This document shows, piece by piece, positions 491-55,280 of a stretch of DNA of 64,000 nucleotides (position 1 is the first letter of the stretch; the number at the start of each line of letters is the position of its first letter). Location of the stretch: NCBI GenBank assembly GCA_030446715.1, contig JAUJMU010000001.1, positions 969,297 to 1,033,296 of the forward strand. The letters are read 5' to 3'. This stretch comes from Cytophagales bacterium (lineage in GTDB: Bacteria > Bacteroidota > Bacteroidia > Cytophagales > 172606-1). The notes beneath the pieces are model-generated. The model did not search any database and was not told the DNA's origin. It saw nothing but the letters and a program-made list of their open reading frames with translations. A program made the position numbers and the translations under genes.

Positions 491-1237
491 ATGAGCAACT
501 TGGGGAAATACATCAATCCATTCACTGATTTTGGTTTCAAGAAGCTCTTTGGCACTGAGTTCAATAAGGAACTGCTGGTTGATTTTCTCAATCAGGTGCT
601 GGGCGAGAGGGAGCAGGTCAGGGACCTGACGTACCTGAACACGGAGAAAGGAGGAAGGACCGAACGGGACCGGAAGGCAGTCTTTGACCTTTACTGCGAA
701 AATGAGCAGGGGGAGAAGTTCATCATTGAACTGCAGAATGTGTACCAGCAGTTCTTCAAAGACCGCAGTATCTACTACGCCACCTTTCCCCTCCAGGAGC
801 AGGCTTCCAAAGGCAGAGAGTGGGACTATTGCCTTAAGGCTGTTTACACCTACCTGGAGATGCCTAAATTCAGGAAGCAGGAGGAGGATCTTGTTACCCA
901 CTTTGATAAGTGGATGTATGTGCTCCGCAATCTGCCACGCCTGCAGGACCGGCCGCGGAAGCTACAGGAAAAGATATTTGAGAAACTTTTTGCCGAAGCT
1001 GAATTAGCCAGACTAACCCCAGAAGATATGAGCACTTACCAGAAAAGCCTCAAAGTGTACCGCGACAACAAGAATACGATGGATTACGCTATAAAAACTG
1101 CAGTAGATGCAGCAGTAGATGCAGCTACAAGGCAAAGGAACATTGAAATTGCTCTAGAGCTGAAGAAACTCAACCTGCCCGTTGAGCAGATTGTCCAGGT
1201 AACTAAGTTGACCAAGGAGGAAATTGAGAAGCTTTAA
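491..1237 (+). CDS. Rpn-family PD-(D/E)XK nuclease / putative transposase, shortened in the middle
   Basis: The protein has 248 residues and begins in the way typical of the Rpn (PDDEXK_2) family: KYINPFTDFGFKKLFGTE. The nuclease residues look present: Asp in VFDLYC and the Glu-x-Gln of FIIELQ. Family members promote RecA-independent recombination or act as horizontally spread nucleases. The segment that normally lies between the AVYT strand and YLEMPKF seems to be missing: the two motifs are fused as KAVYTYLEMPKF, which suggests an in-frame internal loss of a few dozen residues. The C-terminus is a coiled, Ala/Glu-rich tail ending KEEIEKL. A tail remnant of a second copy follows directly. 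Confidence 0.8.
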   Translation: MSNLGKYINPFTDFGFKKLFGTEFNKELLVDFLNQVLGEREQVRDLTYLNTEKGGRTERDRKAVFDLYCENEQGEKFIIELQNVYQQFFKDRSIYYATFPLQEQASKGREWDYCLKAVYTYLEMPKFRKQEEDLVTHFDKWMYVLRNLPRLQDRPRKLQEKIFEKLFAEAELARLTPEDMSTYQKSLKVYRDNKNTMDYAIKTAVDAAVDAATRQRNIEIALELKKLNLPVEQIVQVTKLTKEEIEKL

Positions 1238-1273
1238 CATTCTGTAAAGTTTGCCATGCTGACAGAATATTAA

Positions 1274-1501
1274 CTTTATCAGTTAAGCCTGAAAACGTAT
1301 CGCGATAACAAAAACGCAATGGATTACGCGATCAGCGTCGCTGCTGAAGAAGCCAGACAGAAGGCCCTGCAAGAGGGAGTGCAGCAAGGCTTACAACAGG
1401 CAATGCTCAAAGTCGCATCCGAAATGAAAAGGGAAGGAGATTCTGCCGAAAAGATTGCCCGGGTTGCCGGCCTTACAAAAGAGCAGATTGAGAAGCTGTA
1501 G
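1274..1501 (+). pseudogene. C-terminal remnant of a second Rpn-family gene
   Basis: An open stretch of about 75 codons after a TAA at 1271 encodes SLKTYRDNKNAMDYAI and ends KEQIEKL. These match SLKVYRDNKNTMDYAI and KEEIEKL at the end of the intact neighbour. Everything upstream of this tail is absent, so it is a leftover of a tandem copy or of a recombination event. An internal ATG at 1319 could allow a 60-residue peptide, but I see no reason to think it is made. Confidence 0.65.
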
Positions 1502-1572
1502 CCATTCCCGGGCTTGCCCGGCACAGTACAGTACGACTGCCGGCATCACTTTACCTTTTCATCATTCAGCTA

Positions 1573-1605
1573 TAAAAAAGCCCGGCTGCTGTAGCAGGCC
1601 GGGCT
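1573..1605 (-). terminator. Rho-independent terminator of the RNase E/G gene
   Basis: The arms AGCCCGGC (1579-1586) and GCCGGGCT (1598-1605) pair perfectly, with additional inner pairs. On the minus strand the hairpin is followed by six T, the right place and orientation to end transcription of the gene whose stop codon is at 1628. Confidence 0.8.
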
Positions 1606-1627
1606 GTCAATTTCTTGCGGAGGAGAT

Positions 1628-3187
1628 TTAACCCTGAATGAGTTCGATATCCTCCCCCAGCTGATTCCGGAATTTGTACTCCGTGATTCCCAGTGATGTA
1701 TCCTGCACGAGCTTGATCCAGGTCTTGTACTTCATAAACCACTTCATCCGCCGGGAGAACATGCCGTTGGTGAAGTAGGCGTGCAGGTAAGGATGCAGCG
1801 CAAGACTCACATTCCGCTCATTCTGCTTGGACACGATGAAATCAAGGTGATTTTCGATGATATCCGCTACCAGAATGCTCGCGGTGATTTTGCCGGTACC
1901 GCCGCACATGGGGCAGTTTTCGCCAGTGGTAATGTTCAGCTCCGGCCGTACCCGCTGCCGGGTAATCTGCATGAGGCCAAACTTGGAGAGGGGCAGAATC
2001 GTGAATTTCGACCGGTCAGTAGCCATCTCCTGCTTCATCCGTTCGTACACCATCCGCTTGTGCTCGGCCCGCTTCATGTCAATGAAGTCGATTACGATGA
2101 TGCCGCCCATGTCACGCACCCGCAGTTGCCGGCCGATTTCCTTGGCTGCTTCCAGGTTTACGTTCAGGGCCGTGGCTTCCTGGTCGGCTTCGGAGTTGGA
2201 TTTGTTGCCGCTGTTTACGTCAATCACGTGCAGGGCCTCCGTGTGCTCAATGATCACGTAGCCGCCACCCGGCAAGCTTACTGAACGGCCAAATATGGAC
2301 TTCAGCTGCTTCTCGATGCCGAAATTTTCGAATATCTTGGTTTTGCCGTTGTAAAACTTCAGGATCTTCTCCTTGTCCGGGGCAATCGTGCGGATGTATT
2401 CGCGGATCTCCTCATAAATATCCTTGTCGTCGATGGTAATGCTGTCGAATGTCTCGTTCAGCATATCGCGCAGCATGGAGGAGGCCCGGCTCATTTCGCC
2501 GATGATCTTATCACGCGGCTTTGCCTCGCGCAAAGTTTTGATGCCGGTTTCCCACTTATCGACCAGATTCTGCAGATCGCGGTCCAGCTCAGCTACTTCC
2601 TTACCTTCGGCAACCGTACGGACGATGATGCCGAAATTCTGCGGTTTGATGGATGACATCAGCCGCATTAACCGCTGTCTCTCGTCTTTTTCGGTGATCT
2701 TCTTGGAGATATTGACCGAGTTGGAGAACGGTACCAGCACGATGTAACGGCCGGCAATGGAAAGTTCACAGGACAGACGTGGTCCTTTTGTGGAAATTGG
2801 CTCCTTTACTACCTGTACCAGGATGGGTGAATTCTTGGTCAGGACCTGATTTACCTTGCCCATCTTGTCAATCTCAGGTTCCAGGGCAAAGCCGTTCAGT
2901 TTATTGGCGTTGTAGCGTTTGGCTACAACCTCCTTCGTAAACTTGTTGAGGGAACTGAAGTTAGGGCCCAGATCAAGGTAGTGCAGAAAAGCATCCTTTT
3001 CGTAACCAATGTCCACAAAAGCAGCATTCAGTCCGGGAACCAGCTTTCTTACAGTACCTAAGTAGATATCGCCTACGGTGAAGTTGCCTTCTTTTTCGTC
3101 AAGGTGATATTCTACTAAGCGTTTTTCATGTAAAAGGGCTATCCTTCCACCCTTTTGGGTGGAATTGATGACTAGTTCGCTGCTCAA
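1628..3187 (-). CDS. rng: Rne/Rng family ribonuclease (RNase E/G)
   Basis: This is a single-strand-specific endoribonuclease for rRNA and mRNA processing. An S1-like RNA-binding region lies near the N-terminus (VGDIYLGTVRKLVPGLNAAF). The catalytic part carries HVIDVNSGN with the metal-binding Asp, and the Zn-link CPMCGGTG follows. I place the start at TTG 3187 (protein begins SSELVINSTQKGGRIA), because that gives about 519 residues, the normal length; the frame is open 32 codons further upstream but that extension does not look like the family. It lies downstream of the HU, TPR and small COX24-type genes on the same strand. Confidence 0.93.
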   Translation of the reverse strand: MSSELVINSTQKGGRIALLHEKRLVEYHLDEKEGNFTVGDIYLGTVRKLVPGLNAAFVDIGYEKDAFLHYLDLGPNFSSLNKFTKEVVAKRYNANKLNGFALEPEIDKMGKVNQVLTKNSPILVQVVKEPISTKGPRLSCELSIAGRYIVLVPFSNSVNISKKITEKDERQRLMRLMSSIKPQNFGIIVRTVAEGKEVAELDRDLQNLVDKWETGIKTLREAKPRDKIIGEMSRASSMLRDMLNETFDSITIDDKDIYEEIREYIRTIAPDKEKILKFYNGKTKIFENFGIEKQLKSIFGRSVSLPGGGYVIIEHTEALHVIDVNSGNKSNSEADQEATALNVNLEAAKEIGRQLRVRDMGGIIVIDFIDMKRAEHKRMVYERMKQEMATDRSKFTILPLSKFGLMQITRQRVRPELNITTGENCPMCGGTGKITASILVADIIENHLDFIVSKQNERNVSLALHPYLHAYFTNGMFSRRMKWFMKYKTWIKLVQDTSLGITEYKFRNQLGEDIELIQG

Positions 3188-14450: not shown

Positions 14451-14873
14451 ATGCGGTTTGTAAAACTAACTCAGGAGCAGCAGGAACAATTGGAGAGACT
14501 CTACCGGGAGAGTGACAATCACCGGGAACGGCAACGGGCTCAGGCCCTGCTGTTAAGTAACCGGGGCTATAGAATGGAGCAGTTAGCCGATTTGTTCTCC
14601 GCAGACAGGGACACGGTCAGCAACTGGTTTGGCAGTTGGGAGAAACAGCAGGAAAAACAGGAGATCAGTTTGCTGGACCAGCACGCAACCTACGGGAGAG
14701 CCACTTTTACGGGGGAATACCAGCTCTCTTCCAGCTTACTGTCGAGTTGCATAAGAAGTCTGTTGGAGTCTTTTGTTAAGCCTTTTATCGGGCAGAACCG
14801 CATAGGAGGCTGTTTTTGTTATCTCTTCGTGGGTGTACATGCCCTTCATACTCACTTTTATATTTGTGGGTAA
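14451..14873 (+). pseudogene. IS630-type transposase N-terminal remnant
   Basis: The first about 85 residues form the helix-turn-helix part of an IS630-family transposase (HRERQRAQALLLSNRGYRME and QLADLFSADRDTVSNWFGSW). After about residue 88 the sequence no longer looks like the family and runs into a short unrelated tail. The DDE catalytic domain is absent. The remnant cannot transpose by itself. A fragment of a different transposase overlaps its tail on the other strand. Confidence 0.65.
14736..14849 (-). pseudogene. Possible IS4/Tn5-type transposase N-terminal fragment
   Basis: A 37-codon frame reads MKGMYTHEEITKTASYAVLP followed by DKRLNKRLQQ. The pattern A-x-L-x-DKRLNKRL resembles the N-terminal DNA-binding part of IS4/Tn5-like transposases. 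Nothing of the catalytic domain follows. The call rests on this short motif alone. The palindrome AGAGTTTAAACTCT lies upstream at 14879-14892. Confidence 0.35.
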
Positions 14874-15123: not shown

Positions 15124-16392
15124 TCAGATAATCATTCCGGCGGCTACAGTTTCGTTGGTAAACTCATCCACCAGAATCAGGCTGCCGGTACTGCGGTTGC
15201 GGCTGTAGGAGTCGTAAAACAGCGGCTGCGTCGTGCGGATCAGCACCCGGCCGATTTCGTTCATCCCGATGGTACGGTCCTCTTCTACGCGGTGCAGGGT
15301 ATTGATATTCACCTTGTAACGCACATCCTTTACAATGCAGCGGGCATCCCGGGTGGAGTGTTTGAGGCCGTACTTGCCGTCGGGTTGCAGCTTCTTGTCG
15401 TTCAGCCAGCAGATCATAATCTCAATATCCTGCCCCATCTGCGGCTGGTTGTTGGGTTTTACGATCATATCGCCCCGGCTGATGTCAAGCTCATCTTTCA
15501 GCGTCATCACCACCGACATTGGCGGAAATGCTTCGGTTACCTGGCCACCCATGGATTCAATGCTCTTGATGGTGGTCGTAAAGCCGGAAGGCAGGGCCAT
15601 CACCTCGTCACCCGGCTTAAATACACCGCCTTCTACCCGGCCGGCATACCCCCGGAAGTCGTGGTAGTCATCGGACTGGGGGCGGATTACCCACTGCACT
15701 GGAAAGCGGCTGTCTACCATGTTGTGGTCGCTGCCGATGTGGACGTTTTCCAGCGTATACAGCAGCGTGGAGCCCTCGTACCAGGGCATTTTCACAGACC
15801 GGTCCACTACATTGTCGCCGTGCAGGGCACTGATCGGGATGTAGTGAATGTCAGGCACGGATAGTTTGGAAGCAAACGTCTGAAATTCGATCTTGATCTG
15901 CTCAAACCGCTCCTGACTGTATTCCATCAGGTCCATTTTGTTGACGCACAGCACCAGGTGCTTGATCTGCAGCAGGGAAGCAATAAAAGCGTGGCGGCGG
16001 GTTTGCTCCACTACACCGTGCCGGGCATCTACCAGCACAATGGCAAGGTTGGCGGTAGAGGCGCCGGTGACCATGTTGCGGGTGTACTGAATGTGTCCCG
16101 GGGTGTCGGCAATAATGAACTTCCGCCTTGGCGTGGCAAAATACCGGTAGGCTACGTCAATGGTGATGCCCTGCTCCCGCTCCGCCCGCAGTCCGTCGGT
16201 GAGCAGCGCCAGATTCACGTACCCGTCGCCGCGCTGGAGACTGGTCCGTTCGATGGCCTCCAGCTGATCTTCAAATATGGATTTTGAATCGTACAGGAGC
16301 CGGCCGATCAGGGTGCTTTTGCCGTCGTCTACGCTGCCGGCGGTGGTGAAGCGGAGCAGGTCCATCTGGTTGTACTGGGATACAGCTGTCAT
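15124..16392 (-). CDS. cysN: Sulfate adenylyltransferase subunit 1 (GTPase)
   Basis: CysN is the EF-Tu-like GTPase that drives ATP sulfurylase. From ATG 16392 the product has about 422 residues and starts with MDLLRFTTAGSVDDGKSTLI, which holds the P-loop. The other G motifs are clear: DTPGH and NKMD. EF-Tu-like beta-barrel domains II and III follow (about 235-422). The frame extends 33 codons further upstream, but that part does not look like the family. With cysD and cysC upstream it forms the sulfate activation unit. Confidence 0.95.
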   Translation of the reverse strand: MTAVSQYNQMDLLRFTTAGSVDDGKSTLIGRLLYDSKSIFEDQLEAIERTSLQRGDGYVNLALLTDGLRAEREQGITIDVAYRYFATPRRKFIIADTPGHIQYTRNMVTGASTANLAIVLVDARHGVVEQTRRHAFIASLLQIKHLVLCVNKMDLMEYSQERFEQIKIEFQTFASKLSVPDIHYIPISALHGDNVVDRSVKMPWYEGSTLLYTLENVHIGSDHNMVDSRFPVQWVIRPQSDDYHDFRGYAGRVEGGVFKPGDEVMALPSGFTTTIKSIESMGGQVTEAFPPMSVVMTLKDELDISRGDMIVKPNNQPQMGQDIEIMICWLNDKKLQPDGKYGLKHSTRDARCIVKDVRYKVNINTLHRVEEDRTIGMNEIGRVLIRTTQPLFYDSYSRNRSTGSLILVDEFTNETVAAGMII

Positions 16393-16509
16393 GGCTATTG
16401 GTGGTAAATGCTGAATGCTAAAGGTTAAATGAAAAGAACCCGAACGGCTTGGTTTGAATGATCCGCTCTGAAACCATTGAGCATTTACCATTCAAAATTT
16501 AACATTCCC

Positions 16510-17415
16510 CTAGAAGTACCCCTGTTTCTTGCGGTCTTCCATGGCGGCCTCCGAACGTTTGTCATCTGTGCGGGTGCCACGTTCGGTCTGGCGGGCGGAG
16601 GCTACTTCGGCAATGATTTCTTCCAGATCGGCAGCTGATGAATCCACTGCACCGGTGCAGGTCATGTCGCCGACCGTACGGAAGCGTACCTGCCGTTCTT
16701 CGTATGCTTCCCCACCCAGCAGGGTAATATAGGGCGACCGGGCCAGTAGGGTACCGTTGCGGTTGACCACGGCCCGGCGGTGCGTGAAATAAATGCTGGG
16801 AATTTCCAGCCCTTCCTGGGCAATGTACTGCCACACGTCCATTTCAGTCCAGTTGCTCAAGGGGAATATGCGGAAGTGCTCTCCGCTATGTTTGCGGCCA
16901 TTGAACAGGTTCCACAATTCGGGACGCTGGTTTTTGGGGTCCCACTGCCCGAACTCGTCGCGGTGCGAGAAGAAACGTTCCTTGGCCCGGGCTTTCTCTT
17001 CGTCGCGGCGGGCTCCGCCAAAGGCAGCGTCGAACCGGAATTCCTCAACGGCATCGAGCAGCGTAATGGTTTGAAGGCCATTCCGGCTGGGATTTGGTCC
17101 TTTTTCCTCTACCGCCCGGCCCTTGTCAATGGATTCCTGCACGTGTCGTACCAGCAGACGGGCACCCGTCTGCTCCACCAGCTTGTCGCGGAAGGTGATG
17201 GTTTCTTCGAAGTTGTGCCCGGTGTCAACGTGAAGCAGCGGAAAAGGAAATTTTGCGGGCCAGAAGGCCTTCTGCGCCAGGCGAACCATTACAATGGAGT
17301 CCTTACCGCCGGAGAACAGCAGCACGGGACGCTCAAACTGGGCCGCCACTTCGCGCATGATGTAGATGGCCTCAGATTCAAGTTGCTTCAGGTGGGATAA
17401 GCTGTAGGATACCAT
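16510..17415 (-). CDS. cysD: Sulfate adenylyltransferase subunit 2
   Basis: CysD forms adenosine 5'-phosphosulfate from sulfate and ATP. From ATG 17415 the product has 301 residues. It has the PP-loop SGGKDSIVMVRLAQKAF, then LLHVDTGHNFEET and the RRDEEKARAKER stretch typical of CysD. The C-terminus is the usual GYF. About 115 bases separate it from cysN, filled with short imperfect repeats. Confidence 0.96.
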   Translation of the reverse strand: MVSYSLSHLKQLESEAIYIMREVAAQFERPVLLFSGGKDSIVMVRLAQKAFWPAKFPFPLLHVDTGHNFEETITFRDKLVEQTGARLLVRHVQESIDKGRAVEEKGPNPSRNGLQTITLLDAVEEFRFDAAFGGARRDEEKARAKERFFSHRDEFGQWDPKNQRPELWNLFNGRKHSGEHFRIFPLSNWTEMDVWQYIAQEGLEIPSIYFTHRRAVVNRNGTLLARSPYITLLGGEAYEERQVRFRTVGDMTCTGAVDSSAADLEEIIAEVASARQTERGTRTDDKRSEAAMEDRKKQGYF

Positions 17416-17540
17416 TATCGGATGAAGATGTACGGGCAAACAAATTTAAAGGCTGATTGCTGGATAGCTGGCAACAAAAAGCACCGGGAGCCAGCTTTGA
17501 TTACGCCTGTGTGTCTGTAAACCAAAAGGTAATCAGGCGT

Positions 17541-18140
17541 TTAACGGTTCTGGCTTACAATCGGCAGCAGCGCATTCAGGATGCGCTTTTTACAGCTTTC
17601 CACATCCTGCTGATCGGTTCTCACCTCCAGAAAGGGATTTTCCGGTGCCTCAAAAGGAGAACTGACGCCGGTAAAGTTAAGGATCTCGCCCTGCCGGGCT
17701 TTGGCGTACAATCCCTTTACATCCCGCTCCTCGCAGGTTTCGAGAGGCGCATTCACGTAAATCTCATAAAAATCGTGCTTGCCGATAATCACGCGGGCCA
17801 TATTCCGGATGCTGGCCGTGGGACTGATAAAAGAGCAGATCGTGATCAGACCGCCTTCCAGCATGAGTCTGGCGGCTTCGGCCGCCCGGCGGATGTTTTC
17901 GAGGCGGTCTTCCTCGCTGAAGCCCAGGTTCTTGTTGAGGCCCGACCGCAGGTTGTCGCCGTCCAGCAGATAGGTGAGAAAGCCCCGTTCGTGCAGTGCC
18001 TGCTCCAGTGCCCTTGCCAGCGTACTTTTTCCCGAACCCGACAGGCCCACCAGCCAAAGTACCATTGCCTTCTGCCTCAGCAGCTTTTCCTTGTCGTGCC
18101 GCGACAGCACCGAATCAAAAATAGGATGTATGTTCTCCAA
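17541..18140 (-). CDS. cysC: Adenylylsulfate kinase
   Basis: CysC phosphorylates APS to PAPS. The 199-residue protein has the P-loop GLSGSGKSTLARALE, then LLDGDNLRSGLNKNLGFSEE and FISPTASIRNMAR. The start is TTG 18140, because a TAA stands directly upstream in frame. It is the first gene of the minus-strand cysC-cysD-cysN series and is divergent from the cysQ-like gene. Confidence 0.95.
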   Translation of the reverse strand: MENIHPIFDSVLSRHDKEKLLRQKAMVLWLVGLSGSGKSTLARALEQALHERGFLTYLLDGDNLRSGLNKNLGFSEEDRLENIRRAAEAARLMLEGGLITICSFISPTASIRNMARVIIGKHDFYEIYVNAPLETCEERDVKGLYAKARQGEILNFTGVSSPFEAPENPFLEVRTDQQDVESCKKRILNALLPIVSQNR

Positions 18141-18300
18141 TTACGTAAATGGCTAAATGAATATGGACCCGCGGTATCTGATCCGCCCGGGAAGGCGTCC
18201 GGAGGATGATCTCCGCAAAAATAGGATTATTTCACTTACTCAATAGTCCCGATAGAATTAAGTAGTTTTACAAGCCTGATTTAATAGTTTTTTAAACATT

Positions 18301-19029
18301 TTGATCCATCTGCCAACTATCAGAGACTTAGCCGTGCGGGCCGGAGAGAAAATTATGGAAGTTTATCAACTCCATGACTTTTCGGCAGTTACGGAAGTCA
18401 AAGCTGATCATTCTCCCCTCACCATAGCCGATAAAGCCGCGCACCAGATCATTTCCGAAGGACTGGTCAGTCATTATCCGGAGATTCCGGTCTGGTCGGA
18501 AGCAGGGCGCAGCATTCCGTACGAAGAGCGGCGGGCGTGGACGCAGTTCTGGCTGGTGGGCCCGCTGGACGGCAGCTGTGAAGTTTTAAACCGCTACGGC
18601 GAATTTACCGTAAATATCGCTTTATTAGAAGGCCGGAAGCCTGTAATGGGAGTGATTTACGTACCGGCAACGGGGATGTTGTACTACGGCCACGCCGGAG
18701 AAGGCGCATTCCGGCAGGCATCCGGTGAGCCACCCGTTGCCATCCGGGTAAGCGGCGACACGGAAAAACGCACCGGAGTAGGCAGCCGTTCGCACAGTAG
18801 TCCCGAAGAGGCAGCTATTTTTAGGAACAACCGGGTTGAAGATTTTATTGCCGTTGGCAGTTCGCTGAAGTTTTGCCTGATTGCCGAAGGGAAAGCCAAT
18901 TTCTATTACCGGTCCGGCCCTACCATGGAATGGGATACCGCCGCCGGACAGGCTATTGTGGAGGCAGCCGGGGGCCGCGTGACCGACAGTAAGGGTAATT
19001 ATCTTACGTACACAAACCTTCACCCCTGA
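18301..19029 (+). CDS. CysQ-like 3'(2'),5'-bisphosphate nucleotidase with lost metal ligands
   Basis: The 242-residue protein belongs to the inositol monophosphatase superfamily and is closest to CysQ, which degrades PAP from sulfate assimilation; its place beside cysC fits this. The usual SEE motif reads SEA (residues 66-68), and the usual DPLDGT reads GPLDGS (87-92). So two carboxylates that bind the first metal are Ala68 and Gly87. Asp90 and the C-terminal Asp212 (EWDTAAG) remain. I infer weak or altered catalysis, or a regulatory role. The start is TTG 18301. Confidence 0.85.
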   Translation: MIHLPTIRDLAVRAGEKIMEVYQLHDFSAVTEVKADHSPLTIADKAAHQIISEGLVSHYPEIPVWSEAGRSIPYEERRAWTQFWLVGPLDGSCEVLNRYGEFTVNIALLEGRKPVMGVIYVPATGMLYYGHAGEGAFRQASGEPPVAIRVSGDTEKRTGVGSRSHSSPEEAAIFRNNRVEDFIAVGSSLKFCLIAEGKANFYYRSGPTMEWDTAAGQAIVEAAGGRVTDSKGNYLTYTNLHP

Positions 19030-19070
19030 ATACCAGTTTTATTTGCACGGGATTTTAGAGACGTAGCGGA

Positions 19071-19751
19071 ATGAACATAGAAATACGAACAACTCAGGAC
19101 GGATCACATACCTTATATAATTTCGACCTGAACGAAAATTACCATTCTATTTTCGGCGCGCTGGACGAATCGGCTCATGTATTCATTGAAGCCGGTCTGA
19201 AGCCGGTTCTGGGCGCGAAAAACGGTATTTTTGTTCTGGAAATAGGATTTGGCACCGGACTGAATGCCTGGCTGAGCCTCTGCGAAGTTGAAAATACCGA
19301 TAAGCTGATTACTTACATCGCGGTGGAGCCGTATCCGGTGCCCGGACACGTAGCCCAGCAGCTGAACTACCCGGAACTGGCCGGTAAGGATGATTCGCCC
19401 CTGCACCAGCTTTATCAGCGCATCCACGACACCCAGTGGGGCACCACCCACATCATCGCACCGCAGTTTCACCTGCGGAAACTGCCGCATCCGGTTGAGC
19501 ATTTCAAGCCTTACTGGTTATTTGACCTGATTTATTTTGATGCCTTTGCCCCGACCAAGCAGCCCGAAATGTGGGACCGGGCCATTCTGGAAAAAATTTA
19601 CGACATCACCGTACCCGGCGGCGTGCTGGTGACCTACTGCGCCAAGGGGCAGTTTAAGCGTGACCTGAAGGAAATAGGCTGGCAGGTAGAAACCCTGCCA
19701 GGCCCTACCGGTAAACGCGAAATGACCAGAGCCTACAAACCGGTGCATTAA
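19071..19751 (+). CDS. mnmD: tRNA (mnm5s2U34)-methyltransferase MnmD
   Basis: The 226-residue protein begins with the typical N-terminal beta part (RTTQDGSHTLYNFDLNENYH) and has the SAM-binding motif LEIGFGTGLNAWLS. The FDLIYFDAFAPTKQPEMW motif is diagnostic of Methyltransf_30. It makes the last methylation of the wobble uridine modification. It is the stand-alone version, without the MnmC oxidase domain. It follows the cysQ-like gene by 41 bases. Confidence 0.9.
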   Translation: MNIEIRTTQDGSHTLYNFDLNENYHSIFGALDESAHVFIEAGLKPVLGAKNGIFVLEIGFGTGLNAWLSLCEVENTDKLITYIAVEPYPVPGHVAQQLNYPELAGKDDSPLHQLYQRIHDTQWGTTHIIAPQFHLRKLPHPVEHFKPYWLFDLIYFDAFAPTKQPEMWDRAILEKIYDITVPGGVLVTYCAKGQFKRDLKEIGWQVETLPGPTGKREMTRAYKPVH

Positions 19752-44109: not shown

Positions 44110-45147
44110 TCAACCATATATCTCCGGGCTGCCGGACTCCATCATGACAGGCTGCTTCAGTGTCCGCTTCAGGTGGCGCTTGCGGATTTCGGCCAGATCG
44201 GCTTTCGGAATGGCTCCGATCAGCTGCCGGGTGTATGCCTTCTGTGGGTTTTCGTAAATGTCTTCCGCAAAGCCCGTTTCTTCAATGAGGCCCTTGTTCA
44301 TGACAATGATCCGGTCGGCCATGAATTTTACGACGGAAAGATCATGGGAAATGAAGAGGCACGTAAAGTTGAAGGTTTCTTTGAGGCGGTTGAGGAGATT
44401 GAGCACCTGCGCCTGCACGGATACGTCGAGGGCCGAGACGGATTCGTCGCAGATGATAAACTTCGGGTTCAGGGCCAGGGCACGGGCAATGCAGATCCGC
44501 TGACGCTGTCCGCCGGAAAACTCGTGCGGGTACCGGTAAAAATGCTCCGGCTTCAGGCTGACCATTTCGAGCAGTTCTGTGACATGGTTCTTTCGCCCGT
44601 TTTCACTGCCGCCCACGCCGTGAATGCGCATGGGTTCCATAATGGCTTCTCCTACCGTGAGGCGCGGATTAAGGGAGGAATAAGGGTCCTGAAAAATCAT
44701 CTGCACGTCTTTGCGGAGAGCTATCATTTCGCGGGCGGAGCAGGTCCGGAGGTTGCGGCCGCCGTAGATGATTTCTCCGGAAGCAGGTTCGATCAGCCGC
44801 AGAATGGTGCGTCCCAGCGTGGTTTTGCCGCAGCCCGATTCGCCGACCAGCCCAACCGTTTCGCCGGGATACACCTCGAAAGTGACGCCATCCACGGCTT
44901 TCACGTATTCGATTGTTTTTCCGAAGAAATTCTTCCTCAGCGGGAACCACGTTTTCAGATTTTTTACCTGAAGCAGGGGCGTTTGCCCCATCAGCGCCTG
45001 ATGGCGTTCGCGTACTTCGTCTTCGTCAATGAAATTCATCAGCAGGGCTTCGCCGACGGAGCCGTACTTCCGGGCTACTTCAGTGGTGTTGCCGGCTTCG
45101 TCAGTTGCCATAAAGTCAGCCACTACCGGCAATACCTTCATCTTCAT
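44110..45147 (-). CDS. Oligopeptide/dipeptide ABC transporter ATPase, second half
   Basis: The 345-residue frame begins with a linker of about 60 residues ([20 protein letters not shown]). A full OppF/DppF-type ATPase follows: [20 protein letters not shown] (Walker A), [15 protein letters not shown] and [14 protein letters not shown]. The linker is the direct continuation of the ATPase encoded upstream if one G is added near 45177, so this was probably the second half of one double-ATPase gene (GsiA-like). As read, its ATG overlaps the upstream stop as ATGA. No permease genes are adjacent. Confidence 0.85.
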
Positions 45148-45971
45148 GTCCAGGCGCGGCCGGCAGGCCAGCAGACCCTGGTGTAGGGATGCTGCGGGTT
45201 GGAAAAAACGTCAAACACCGTTCCCTGCTCCACTACTTTTCCCCGGTACATGACCATCACCCGGTCAGCGAGTCCGGCAATTACGCCGAGGTCGTGGGTG
45301 ATGAAAATAATACTCGTGCCGTGCTCGTCGCGGAGGTTGCGGAGCAGGTCCAGAATGGTGGCCTGCACGGTAACATCGAGAGCTGTGGTAGGTTCATCGG
45401 CAATGAGCACAGCCGGCCGGCAGGAGAGGGCCATGGCAATCATGACCCGTTGTTTCTGGCCACCCGACAATTCGTGGGGATAGCTGTTGAAGATGTGTTC
45501 GGGCCGCGGCAACTGTACTTTCCGGAACCATCCGATGGTTTTCTCCCGGGCGACGCGGCGGCTTACGTTCTGGTGCAGCATAATGGCTTCCATTACCTGA
45601 TTGCCGCAGGTATAGACCGGGTTCAGCGAACTCATCGGCTCCTGAAAGACCATGGCAATCTCACTGCCCCGGATCAGGCGCATTTCCTTTTCAGACAGCT
45701 TTGCCAGGTCTACTGGTCCGAACCGGGGGGAATGAAAAATCATTTTGCCTCCTTCAATCCGGCCGGGAGGGCTCCCGATCAGCCGCATGATGGAAGCCGC
45801 AGTGACCGACTTGCCCGAACCTGATTCACCCACAATGCCAATTGTTTCCCCTTTCCTCAGGTTGAAACTTACATCATCCACGGCTTTTACCAGTCCCGGT
45901 CCGGTCCCGAACCAGGTGCTCAGGTTCCTCACCTGAAGGGTAAACTCACTTTCCCGTTGCTCTTTCCACAT
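45144..45971 (-). CDS. Oligopeptide/dipeptide ABC transporter ATPase, first half, frameshifted end
   Basis: The 275-residue frame is an OppD/DppD-type ATPase with [19 protein letters not shown] (Walker A), [17 protein letters not shown] and [14 protein letters not shown]. It runs normally to NPQHPYTR, then ends in the unrelated [10 protein letters not shown]. Reading one base over gives [16 protein letters not shown], which is the expected family end and leads into the next frame. The lesion is one base in the short G run of AGGGTC (plus strand 45176-45178). It is either a real break or a sequencing slip. Confidence 0.85.
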
Positions 45972-46363
45972 GCTGATCCGTATTTTACAGGAATAATCAT
46001 GTATGCCTGTAACCTGATCAAGTTAACCGGGCCGGGTATGTAAAACCTAATCAGAAGGCAGGCAAAGGCCGTCGAATAAGCCATAAAAGGCACTTTTATC
46101 AGGATTAGGGAGAATTTATACGCACAGGCGCTGCCGGTGGCCTGGCAGCCGTGACGATGCGGGTAAGCCTTGCCAGCGGCTCAGAATATCCGCAATTATC
46201 TCTTTTTTTATACCTGATTTTCTGAGAGCAGCGGGGCAGAGCGTTTTTTCTTATCTCACTTTTTTATTAAATTACTCTAATGTCTGACCTGCTCCGTTCG
46301 TTCTGTAATCAGCAACCCTTCAACCGGCCCCGATAAAGTTTTACCATTTTACCTTTTCTGCTT
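45972..46363. other. Intergenic region, nothing firm
   Basis: About 390 bases between the divergent ABC ATPase and HEXXH protein genes. It contains a small hairpin (GCTGCC...GGCAGC near 46130) and A+T-rich stretches near 46200 and 46260 that could hold promoters. I see no exact TAnnTTTG box and no coding stretch. Confidence 0.4.
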
Positions 46364-52189: not shown

Positions 52190-53476
52190 ATGGAACGCAA
52201 CGAAGTATTCTTCGATTACCTGCGCGCAAAACTTTTTGAAGTAGAAGACAATGATAACCGAGTGGAACAACTTACCAACTCAGTTAATGATTTAGCTGAA
52301 ATGCTGGTTGATAAGCTGCATGAGGTGCGTTGCTACACGTTAGCAGCACTCGATGCGGACATTCCGGTTAATAATCCTCTCATTGTAGCCACCAACGAGA
52401 TAGTTAAAAAGCATTGGAAAGGTTTGGAAGGAAAATACCCGGAGCCACCACGTGGTATATTACGCGGGGTAATGCTGAGTGCTCTTTATCAACTTGGAAC
52501 AACGGATGACGAGCTTTGTCGCATCATTTACTACACGGCTAGCGGGCATAGCCAGTTCGTGAGATTTGGAAACGAGGAGCCAGTTGTTGATCGTATTCTT
52601 AGCGAATTTGGGAAAAATGTAGAGGACGAAGCGGTAAAAGAGTGGTCGTTGACTTCTACACCTGCAACGTCAAAAATTGACACTTTTAAGCTTAAAGGTT
52701 TGAAATTGGGCGCTGTAGAAGTTGATTCTGATACTCTTAAAGACTCACTTAATAAAGCTGCAGGTATTGAGCCAAAAACAAATCACGGCCCCCAACATGG
52801 ACCTCAATATTGGGGACCCCATTTTGCTTCTACCGCAAGTGCTGGTATTACAAAAGCCATCGAAACGGCGGTTAAAAGCTTTGGTGAATCCATCTCAATG
52901 AAAGCTGTGGAGGACGAAATAAACAAATTCTTTTCCTCTGTTCGCACTTCACTCAATACGACTTTAAAAGATTCCTTCCAATCACTGTTAGCAGTAGAGC
53001 AGCGAAGCAAACTACTGTGGTGGAAAGAAACCTTATTTTCTACGACGCTACGAAAAGGGTACCGTGAAATCGATGTGGCTGTGCTACCAGTGGTTATGGC
53101 TATTGATTTAGCCAAGCTGCTGCCAAATGCAACACCCGTAAGTGTAGATTACCTGCTAACCGACACCTACCTTGCTATAGTTGGCACTAAACCACAGAAG
53201 CATACCTTGATAGAACTGTTAGAGCCTTTTGGGGAAGAGCAATGGCAGAAGATACTTGCCCCTCATCTTTCCATGATGACGGATTGCGGAGAGCGAACTA
53301 CCCTGACGGCTTTCCTAGCCCAGGTAGTCCACAACCAACGGCAGCCAAAAAAACTTGCTATCTATACGGGCCTGCGGGCTGAGAGCCAAGCTTCCCCGGA
53401 CCAACTGGCAGTAATTGTCCTACACGATCTGCTTACTGAACGCCTCATAAAAGAAGCCAATGCCCCTCAAGTGTAA
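52190..53476 (+). CDS. GTPase-associated system all-helical protein (GASH)
   Basis: The 428-residue protein is predicted all-helical. The C-terminal half has the features I associate with the GASH domain: LLWWKETLFSTTLRKGYREI, VAVLPVVMAIDLAKLLPNAT and SVDYLLTDTYL. A His/Gly/Pro-rich patch sits in the middle (NHGPQHGPQYWGPH). GASH proteins are the first genes of GTPase-centred conflict operons; their biochemistry is not known. The next gene starts 17 bases before its stop, so the two are coupled. Confidence 0.8.
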   Translation: MERNEVFFDYLRAKLFEVEDNDNRVEQLTNSVNDLAEMLVDKLHEVRCYTLAALDADIPVNNPLIVATNEIVKKHWKGLEGKYPEPPRGILRGVMLSALYQLGTTDDELCRIIYYTASGHSQFVRFGNEEPVVDRILSEFGKNVEDEAVKEWSLTSTPATSKIDTFKLKGLKLGAVEVDSDTLKDSLNKAAGIEPKTNHGPQHGPQYWGPHFASTASAGITKAIETAVKSFGESISMKAVEDEINKFFSSVRTSLNTTLKDSFQSLLAVEQRSKLLWWKETLFSTTLRKGYREIDVAVLPVVMAIDLAKLLPNATPVSVDYLLTDTYLAIVGTKPQKHTLIELLEPFGEEQWQKILAPHLSMMTDCGERTTLTAFLAQVVHNQRQPKKLAIYTGLRAESQASPDQLAVIVLHDLLTERLIKEANAPQV

Positions 53477-54446
53477 TACCTCTCATTGCCATCCTGAAGA
53501 TAATGAATGCCAAGCAGGCCATCATTCATTAAGCGTGTGTCCTCACCTGATCCGCAGTGAAGGTGCCACGGAAGCAGGTGGGCCTAACACAGTAGGGGCG
53601 GAACTAGACGGGAGGCGGGTAAGCTGGACCGGCAGCGCAATGGGCTTGACTGACTTGGAACCGCTGTCTGCTCGGTCAAGGATACTGCTTGTTGGATTGG
53701 TGGGTATGGAGAATGCCGGTAAAACTACTTTCTTGGCATTGCTGTTTTCGTTTCTGCGCAGGGGCCAGACTATACCAGGCTACCGGTTTGCGGGTTCCAA
53801 TACCCTACCGGGATGGGAGCTTATTGCGGGCTTTTTGACTTTCCGGGATGGCTCAAACCAAGTGAGCTTTCCCCCTCACACCAGCCGGAACGCCGGGCGG
53901 GTGCCGGGCTTGCTGCACTTAGCATTGAAAGATGTGTCCGGCCATTTAATCGATGTAGTTTTCACTGATGCGCCAGGCGAATGGTTTAATGAGTGGCGTA
54001 ACAATCAGAAGGCCGATGCGGCGGTCGGAGCCGAGTGGATACACCAGCACGGGGATGGCTTTCTGCTTTTTGCCGACTGTGAAGAACTGGCCGGACCTAA
54101 CCGTGGCACTGCACGGATGGAGATCCAAATGCTGGCCGACCGGTTGGGAACAAATCTGGGGAAGAGACCATTAGGACTGGTTTGGGCCAAATCCGATGTT
54201 GAGAACGTGCGTCCAGCTTTACGGGAGAAGATTCAAGGCTACATTCAGGCGATTGGCCCGCAGCGTTACAGGGAGTTCGCCATTAGTGTAAAACAAGACG
54301 AACAACAGCATTGGCATAAGCAGGTGCTTGAGACCGTATCATGGCTAATTGACACAATACGGCATGAGCCTGGCGAACCACTTCCACTAATCCCTTCAGC
54401 TAATACGGATGATTTATTTTTGCTGCGTCGCAGCGTTTCATCATGA
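53460..54446 (+). CDS. TRAFAC-class GTPase (DO-GTPase2) with an N-terminal Cys/His cluster
   Basis: The 328-residue protein has a GTPase core from about residue 72: G1 GMENAGKTT (82-90), G3 TDAPGEW and a G4-like WAKSD. Residues 5-29 hold four Cys and five His (KCNTSHCHPEDNECQAGHH, then CPH), which looks like a small zinc-binding module. By family and position it is the double-GTPase-2 component, working with the neighbouring DO-GTPase1. Its end overlaps the next start as ATGA. Confidence 0.8.
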   Translation: MPLKCNTSHCHPEDNECQAGHHSLSVCPHLIRSEGATEAGGPNTVGAELDGRRVSWTGSAMGLTDLEPLSARSRILLVGLVGMENAGKTTFLALLFSFLRRGQTIPGYRFAGSNTLPGWELIAGFLTFRDGSNQVSFPPHTSRNAGRVPGLLHLALKDVSGHLIDVVFTDAPGEWFNEWRNNQKADAAVGAEWIHQHGDGFLLFADCEELAGPNRGTARMEIQMLADRLGTNLGKRPLGLVWAKSDVENVRPALREKIQGYIQAIGPQRYREFAISVKQDEQQHWHKQVLETVSWLIDTIRHEPGEPLPLIPSANTDDLFLLRRSVSS

Positions 54447-55280
54447 CTAAGCCACACCAATTATTAATCATTGGCGCCCCAAATGTGGGCAAAACGCACT
54501 TTGTAGGGCAGTTGTACAATCGGTTGGATGCTAGGCGTAGTACCTACCGCATGGTGACAGCACCAACTGACTTGACGGTAATAAAAGCCGTGATCGACCG
54601 CTTGGCCCGTGGGCTGGCAGGAGAACATACACAAAGTGGCTTGAATGAAGAGGTAAACTTCGTTGTAGCCAATGACCAGGTGGAAATTGCCCTTACTTTT
54701 CCCGATTACGGAGGGGAACAAGTGAGAGATATAGTGCGTGACCGACTAGTTTCCAGTAGGTGGCAAGAACTGATTAAACAGTCAGATGAGTGGTTACTAT
54801 TGATTCGTCCGGACGAAATCTTTGCCGTTGGAAGACATTACTACGCGTGGCCTTGCTCACTTGGAGGATCTACGCAAACGTACCACTGAAGTTAGGGACG
54901 AAACTGATTTGACGGCTCCGAGCTTCTATATTGAGTTGCTACAAATGATGCTGCACATCAAGGGCAAGTCGGTTGTTACCCCTATTATTGAGCCACGGCT
55001 TACAGTAGCGCTTTCATGCTGGGATACGTTGGGCTTGCCGGAATCGGATACTACACCGTTAAAGGTACTACAGGAGCAGTTACCGTTCTTTGCAAATTTT
55101 TTAGAAACAGCATGGAAGCCAGGATACTGGCGGGTCTGTGGTCTCTCTTCGTTGGGAAGAACATTGGACGCGAAGGAGCCCAACGAAGATTTTGTTGACG
55201 ATGGGCCGGAGACAGCTGGGTACGTAGTATTGCCCTCGGGTGAACATGATGCCGATCTAACTCAACTTATTACTTTCTGA
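54443..55280 (+). pseudogene. DO-GTPase1, one frameshift
   Basis: Read across one shift, this is a GTPase of about 278 residues: G1 IIGAPNVGKTHF, G3 FPDYGGEQ, then IRPDEI, and after the shift LPLEDITTRGLAHLEDLRKR and a C-terminal half with WDTLGLPESDTTP. The break is a single extra T in a TTT run near 54821. Removing it restores one frame, so it may be a sequencing error or a fresh mutation. It begins inside the stop codon of DO-GTPase2 and ends two bases before the GAP1 start. Confidence 0.75.

Follow-up and report, generated by a model that had tools for sequence, protein, structure and literature searches.

A rewritten metal-binding loop in the only CysQ found in a Cytophagales genome and the possible recent loss of a PAP phosphatase

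Introduction

The locus described here raises the question of whether a gene that still resembles cysQ encodes a working PAP phosphatase, or is instead dead, repurposed or partly misread. It lies in a window of 64 kb (the whole stretch of DNA analysed, G000:C18:969297-1033296) of a genome termed G000, which is assembled to 6.43 Mb in 25 contigs and is 98.15% complete. Because the gene passes the equivalog cut-off for CysQ, automatic annotation would call it a working enzyme. Judged from the sequence, a dead gene, a repurposed protein and a partial sequencing error all appear compatible with it. If the changes described below are real, the locus would be either a rare pseudo-enzyme derived from CysQ or a recent natural loss of PAP phosphatase, in which case one must ask how the cell deals with PAP. 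If they are artefactual, it would caution against reading changes of a catalytic site from an assembly in which other genes are frameshifted.

Results

The cysQ-derived ORF scores 245.9 bits with the NCBIfam profile TIGR01331, the CysQ equivalog, against a curated cut-off of 228.8, and 157.1 bits against 27 with the Pfam profile PF00459 of the inositol monophosphatase (IMPase) family. It is divergent from a cysC-cysD-cysN cluster, in which cysC lies nearest and is followed by cysD and cysN. The same divergent adjacency to cysC is found in all five family genomes in which CysQ was found, and the first-pass annotation was right that the gene keeps its place. Downstream lies a gene that we take to be mnmD-like (Table 1). 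A search of G000 at E 10 or better for a second, complete CysQ, a check proposed with the first-pass annotation, surfaced only one other match, an IMPase paralogue that is 28% identical, has the usual motifs intact and by eye looks SuhB-like; no second CysQ was found.

Table 1. Coordinates of the cysQ-derived gene, its altered and retained sites and its neighbours, numbered within the window.
Feature	Position	Strand	Remarks
cysN	15124..16491	-	0/82 conserved sites changed
cysD	16510..17439	-	0/92 conserved sites changed
cysC (adenylyl-sulfate kinase)	17541..18140	-	divergent neighbour; 0/28 conserved sites changed
cysQ-derived ORF	18301..19029	+	242 aa, TTG start; terminal TGA reached outside the relatives' frame
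D44, conserved Asp of TxAD segment, kept	18430..18432	+	among the 47 conserved sites kept
E67, first Glu of EE pair, kept	18499..18501	+	IMPase Glu70 equivalent, Mg ligand
E68A, second Glu of EE pair	18502..18504	+	E in 109/109 relatives
D87G	18559..18561	+	IMPase Asp90 equivalent, Mg-I and Mg-II ligand; D in 109/109 relatives
D90, kept	18568..18570	+	IMPase Asp93 equivalent, Mg-II ligand
Remainder of rewritten loop (T92S, K93C, F95V, K97N, N99Y)	18574..18597	+
D212 of WD motif (W211-D212), kept	18934..18936	+	IMPase Asp220 equivalent, Mg-II ligand
Altered tail YTNLHP-stop	19009..19029	+	one base fewer than relatives at 19012/19013
Relatives-like C-terminus KPSPLNTSFICTGF-stop	19014..19058	+	readable in the other frame
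mnmD-like gene	19071..19751	+	comparison gene; 0/41 conserved sites changed

The translation reads SEA at residues 66-68 and GPLDGSCEVLNRYG at residues 87-100. The SEE motif has thus become SEA (E68A) and DPLDGTKEF has become GPLDGSCEV (D87G, T92S, K93C and F95V), with K97N and N99Y beyond it. The exchanges of SEE for SEA and of DPLDGT for GPLDGS had been called at first pass and are read directly here, as is the retention of Asp90 and Asp212, to which E67 can be added; K93C, F95V, K97N, N99Y and a frameshift at 19012/19013 had been overlooked. Compared with the copy in the same-genus genome G002, the loop differs by ten bases at seven codons, some of them at two or three bases, and all the differences are substitutions with no net insertion or deletion.

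Residue equivalences to IMPase were taken from a SuhB alignment and motif order. The human enzyme coordinates Mg-I through Glu70, Asp90 and the carbonyl of Ile92, Mg-II through Asp90, Asp93 and Asp220, and Mg-III through Glu70 (PMC4954947), and in the GEE motif it is the first Glu that is named as the ligand (PMC5516325). The initial view that two metal-binding carboxylates are lost therefore stands for D87 only: E68 corresponds to the second Glu, and the ligand E67 is kept. Likewise, a ligand is indeed lost from the first metal site, but the damage is wider than was claimed, since the lost D87 bridges Mg-I and Mg-II and both main metals are affected. Of the two signature patterns as printed in PMC2834668 and compared by eye with the translation, PS00630 is matched by WDTAAGQAIVEAAGG, while PS00629, the N-terminal signature that needs Asp-Pro-[LIVM]-Asp and [FY] third after Ser/Thr, is broken by Gly in place of its first Asp and by Val where [FY] is required.

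Four other genomes of the family have CysQ, two of the same genus (72% and 60% identical) and two of the same family (55% and 54%), and SEEG and DPLDGTKEF are present in all four. CysQ is absent at E 1e-30 from three of the eight family genomes, all three from another genus and one of them 72% complete. The alignment with CysQ of relatives that had been proposed was built from the window protein and 109 relatives: the best 80 named loci of a scan with the peptide patterns GPTMEWD and FWLV[DG]PLD, the four family sequences and 25 from an order search, with the copy of G000 itself and repeated family loci excluded. As peptide patterns and best-match searches chose these loci, the set leans to conserved sequences. 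All 109 relatives have E at position 68, D at 87, T at 92 and F at 95, so that both the changed Glu and the changed Asp are invariant; position 93 is K in 102 and R in seven, and position 99 is N in 103. At the 51 sites conserved in at least 97% of these relatives, the window protein keeps 47, D44, E67, D90, G91 and D212 included, and changes only the four invariant positions just named. One relative (L073) alters five such sites, scattered, and the remaining 108 alter between none and two.

The altered loop was found in none of the 109 aligned relatives. In exact pattern scans, WLVGPLDG occurs in one of 390 genomes of the order and one of 395 of the phylum, both times G000 itself, and WLVDPLDG is found in 78 of the 390 order genomes. 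Among plasmids, tblastn gave 530 matching records, every one of them less than 60% identical.

The changes are clustered. Polarised against the four family relatives, the window protein has 12 private changes at the 110 sites invariant in those four (E68A, D87G, T92S, K93C, F95V, K97N, N99Y, V123A, A159G, L174F, Y177N and I185V), compared with 4 at 102 sites in the sister G002 and 10/108, 7/105 and 10/108 on the longer branches of G001, G003 and G004. Residues 68-99, which hold 21 of the 110 sites, contain seven of the 12, and the other 89 sites contain five. In permutations, the best cluster of 13 residues has a P of 0.003, and at a span of 32 residues P is 0.03. At sites before residue 237 conserved in at least 90% of relatives, all six changes fall within residues 66-100 (18 of 69 sites; P 0.0002, for an interval picked after the data had been inspected). 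In cysN, cysD, cysC and the mnmD-like gene together, 0 of 243 conserved sites are changed, with conservation defined from 9, 35, 63 and 14 homologues, respectively, and a large ABC ORF left out for having too few; cysC carries three private changes in the window against seven in G002. With no conserved site changed in these neighbours and fewer private changes in cysC than in its sister copy, the excess is local to the metal loop. Uniform neutral decay is disfavoured by the clustering and by the normal level of change in the rest of the gene, as is a genome-wide or uniform base error by the neighbours' conserved sites. Better fits than either are a local event or selection at the active site. 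Neither local gene conversion nor a nearby inverted template found support: the window holds no second copy of the loop DNA at up to three mismatches, and there are no inverted repeats in 18100-19100.

Codon models are less telling, synonymous change being saturated. With two branch classes omega is 0.28 here against 0.11 on the other branches (likelihood ratio 4.3), and with three it is 0.17 here and 0.24 on the sister branch; the corresponding likelihood ratios in neighbouring genes are 4.0 for cysC, 2.6 for cysD and 0.0 for the mnmD-like gene. The models show no clear relaxation on the branch, a point against a recent loss of function to which the saturation gives little weight.

At the C-terminus, the window is one base short relative to G002 at 19012/19013, leaving the protein changed and truncated. 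Where YNK is expected the frame reads YTN, with YNK out of frame, possibly through a sequence error; N238 is present in 105 and K239 in 102 of the 109 relatives. Read in the other frame, the C-terminus ends at 19056-19058, the same place as in three of the four family relatives. Of the matches that the order search listed, that of G000 alone has an internal stop. The frameshift is suspect because other genes of G000 carry breaks that are read as probable indel errors.

These breaks are found at several places. A gene on contig C2 with a DHH match (L016, about 1310-2445, minus strand), which from its length and from recall we take to be nrnA-like, has several indels of one or two bases, most of them in short runs, and a recJ-like gene on contig C18 (L017, about 576-2283, minus strand) has two longer pieces 84% and 89% identical to the G002 copy. 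A D-lactate dehydrogenase-like gene (L140:3976-5051, minus strand) is split at profile position 244. Within the window, two peptide-type ABC ATPase ORFs at 44113-46022 (minus strand) align to positions 7-267 and 301-579 in a fused profile of GsiA type; their frames overlap at 45147-45210, and they are probably one split gene, the alternative being two genes. Three overlapping ORFs in different frames at 53451-55277 (plus strand), with no NCBIfam match at 1e-5, are perhaps another broken gene. In G001 too, a large ABC-type ORF is broken (L009, two matches in different frames) and the mnmD-like gene has a stop. ORFs in G000 are shorter and tile at 9.8 per 10 kb over 260 kb, compared with 7.1 over 140 kb of G004. 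Adjacent frame-shifted ORF pairs number 14 in the 140 kb of G004 and 54 in 324 kb of G000 that take in the window, ordinary gene overlaps being included in both counts. When 20 ORF fragments from such places were compared with NCBIfam, one pair was clearly a split gene and another probably so. The breaks are not everywhere, since the G000 ATPase-domain matches listed show no stop. Indel errors are the probable source of breaks in the other genes of G000, and real recent gene decay is a possible one.

An AlphaFold model built from a 34-row alignment gives a confident IMPase fold (pLDDT 86.4, pTM 0.88), with low confidence at residues 21-40 and 91-100, the latter block having a mean of 58. The best Foldseek match is 3b8b, the CysQ of Bacteroides thetaiotaomicron (E 4.7e-20, TM-score 0.84 by query length). 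The fold is predicted to persist without the last residues, the model itself being no test of stability.

Discussion

We tentatively favour a reading in which the only CysQ found in G000 has recently been inactivated, in this lineage alone, by localised changes of its metal loop. Loss of catalysis is a well-founded inference because the bridging ligand D87 is gone, and by analogy its loss would abolish hydrolysis. In one study, SuhB D93N and the "equivalent" human IMPase D90N suppress activity, although which Asp is meant is uncertain, since an oligonucleotide in the same paper changes the motif's second Asp (PMC2834668); a catalytic-dead BPNT2 is described with an upstream pocket Asp changed (PMC8551643). 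D87G would take away the carboxylate bridging Mg-I and Mg-II, accompanied by E68A, T92S, K93C, F95V, K97N and N99Y, leaving the fold in place and two-metal PAP hydrolysis lost. Inactivation may have come so recently that the remainder of the gene has had no time to decay, in keeping with the similarity between the level of change outside residues 68-99 (5/89) and the whole-gene level of the sister (4/102). A neutral loss must nevertheless assume a single local mutational event, since seven of the 12 private changes fall in 21 of the 110 sites.

The organism could probably tolerate such a loss, and enzymes of the NrnA type might clear what PAP remains. Of the sulfotransferases, the two families searched, PF13469 and PF00685, have no match in G000; PF13469 has one match in G001 and two in G002, one of the latter also matching PF00685, and neither family is matched in G003-G007. 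The CysH of G000 carries Cys-Cys and CEPC motifs, presumably the marks of an iron-sulfur enzyme able to reduce APS. With two sulfotransferase families unmatched and a CysH of the iron-sulfur type, the PAP load should be small, and PAP production in G000 may be low. PAPS is probably still made, as cysC is unchanged at its conserved sites. A low PAP load alone does not predict loss of the enzyme, since G003 and G004 lack both families and keep an intact CysQ. Enzymes of the DHH family, NrnA among them, are able to act on PAP (PMC8268124), but NrnA was a weak PAP phosphatase in one study (PMC9757072). NrnA-type PAP phosphatases belong to a different family from CysQ, the DHH family, and could cover PAP removal; G000 has a DHH gene of this length class, which is itself broken as assembled and so counts against such a backup.

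Somewhat unlikely, yet deserving of consideration, is that the protein is a pseudo-enzyme under selection, no longer catalytic but retaining its scaffold and some of its ligand pocket for another role. Such a role could be, for example, the binding of PAP, PAPS or another nucleotide beside cysC-cysD-cysN. The narrower proposal of a CysQ-derived protein that gave up catalysis to serve as a ligand sensor or regulator at the sulfate activation locus, its metal loop remodelled and its scaffold otherwise conserved, seems rather improbable. Selective retention is consistent with the confinement of all four changed sites among the 51 most conserved to residues 68-95, with private changes outside residues 68-99 no higher than the sister's level, with the divergent position beside cysC and with the confident model whose best match is a CysQ. 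There is also precedent in the superfamily: E. coli SuhB has phenotypes independent of its activity (PMC2834668). Set against this, the altered loop occurs in one genome only, which leaves its retention by selection conjectural. The conserved Asn-Lys tail is gone if the frameshift is real, and residues 91-100 are modelled with low confidence. No report of a CysQ pseudo-enzyme was found among the literature titles listed, nor any paper pairing "pseudoenzyme" with "inositol monophosphatase". The pseudo-enzyme put forward in the first-pass annotation thus gains from the probable loss of catalysis and from a fitting pattern of change, and loses by its restriction to one genome.

Less likely, but still a serious rival and one that the first-pass annotation had itself foreseen, is that consensus errors account for the C-terminal frameshift and perhaps for the loop changes as well, so that the living gene is an ordinary CysQ. 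Small indels in the nrnA-like gene leave and re-enter the frame while the flanking protein is well conserved, the recJ-like gene has two frame changes, the D-lactate dehydrogenase-like gene is split between frames and the ABC ATPase of the window is probably split. In cysQ itself, the internal stop and the C-terminus readable one frame over, with its family-typical end, point the same way. The loop changes, however, are substitutions without a net indel, unlike the other breaks, and nearby substitutions look accurate in view of the unchanged conserved sites of the four neighbours. The ATPase-domain matches listed, free of stops, speak against error as well.

Highly improbable is a phosphatase that still works, either with altered use of metals, as had also been suggested at first pass, or on another substrate, with E67, D90 and D212 acting together with the Ser, Cys and Tyr newly present: E67, D90, D212, D44 and G91 are kept and Ser at 92 retains a hydroxyl, but the Gly that replaces the bridging carboxylate offers no side-chain ligand and is found at position 87 in none of the 109 relatives, and single changes of pocket aspartates, not all of the same aspartate, are reported to inactivate members of this superfamily (PMC8551643, PMC2834668).

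Among known systems, the recently inactivated CysQ that we favour is closest to the B. thetaiotaomicron enzyme 3b8b, with which it shares fold, length and 41% identity in structural alignment. It resembles CysQ of TIGR01331 in equivalog score, adjacency to cysC and the ligands E67, D90 and D212, and departs from it in Gly for the bridging D87, Ala for the second Glu, DGSCEV for DGTKEF and a C-terminal Asn-Lys tail that is out of frame. With the wider IMPase superfamily of PF00459, including human IMPA1 and E. coli SuhB, it has the profile match, overall fold and WD motif in common. SuhB, the precedent for a catalysis-independent role, differs from the window protein in retaining both EE and DPLDGT.

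Elsewhere in the window, at 14451-14873 on the plus strand, a 140-residue ORF has a start that by eye resembles an IS630-type helix-turn-helix transposase and looks truncated.
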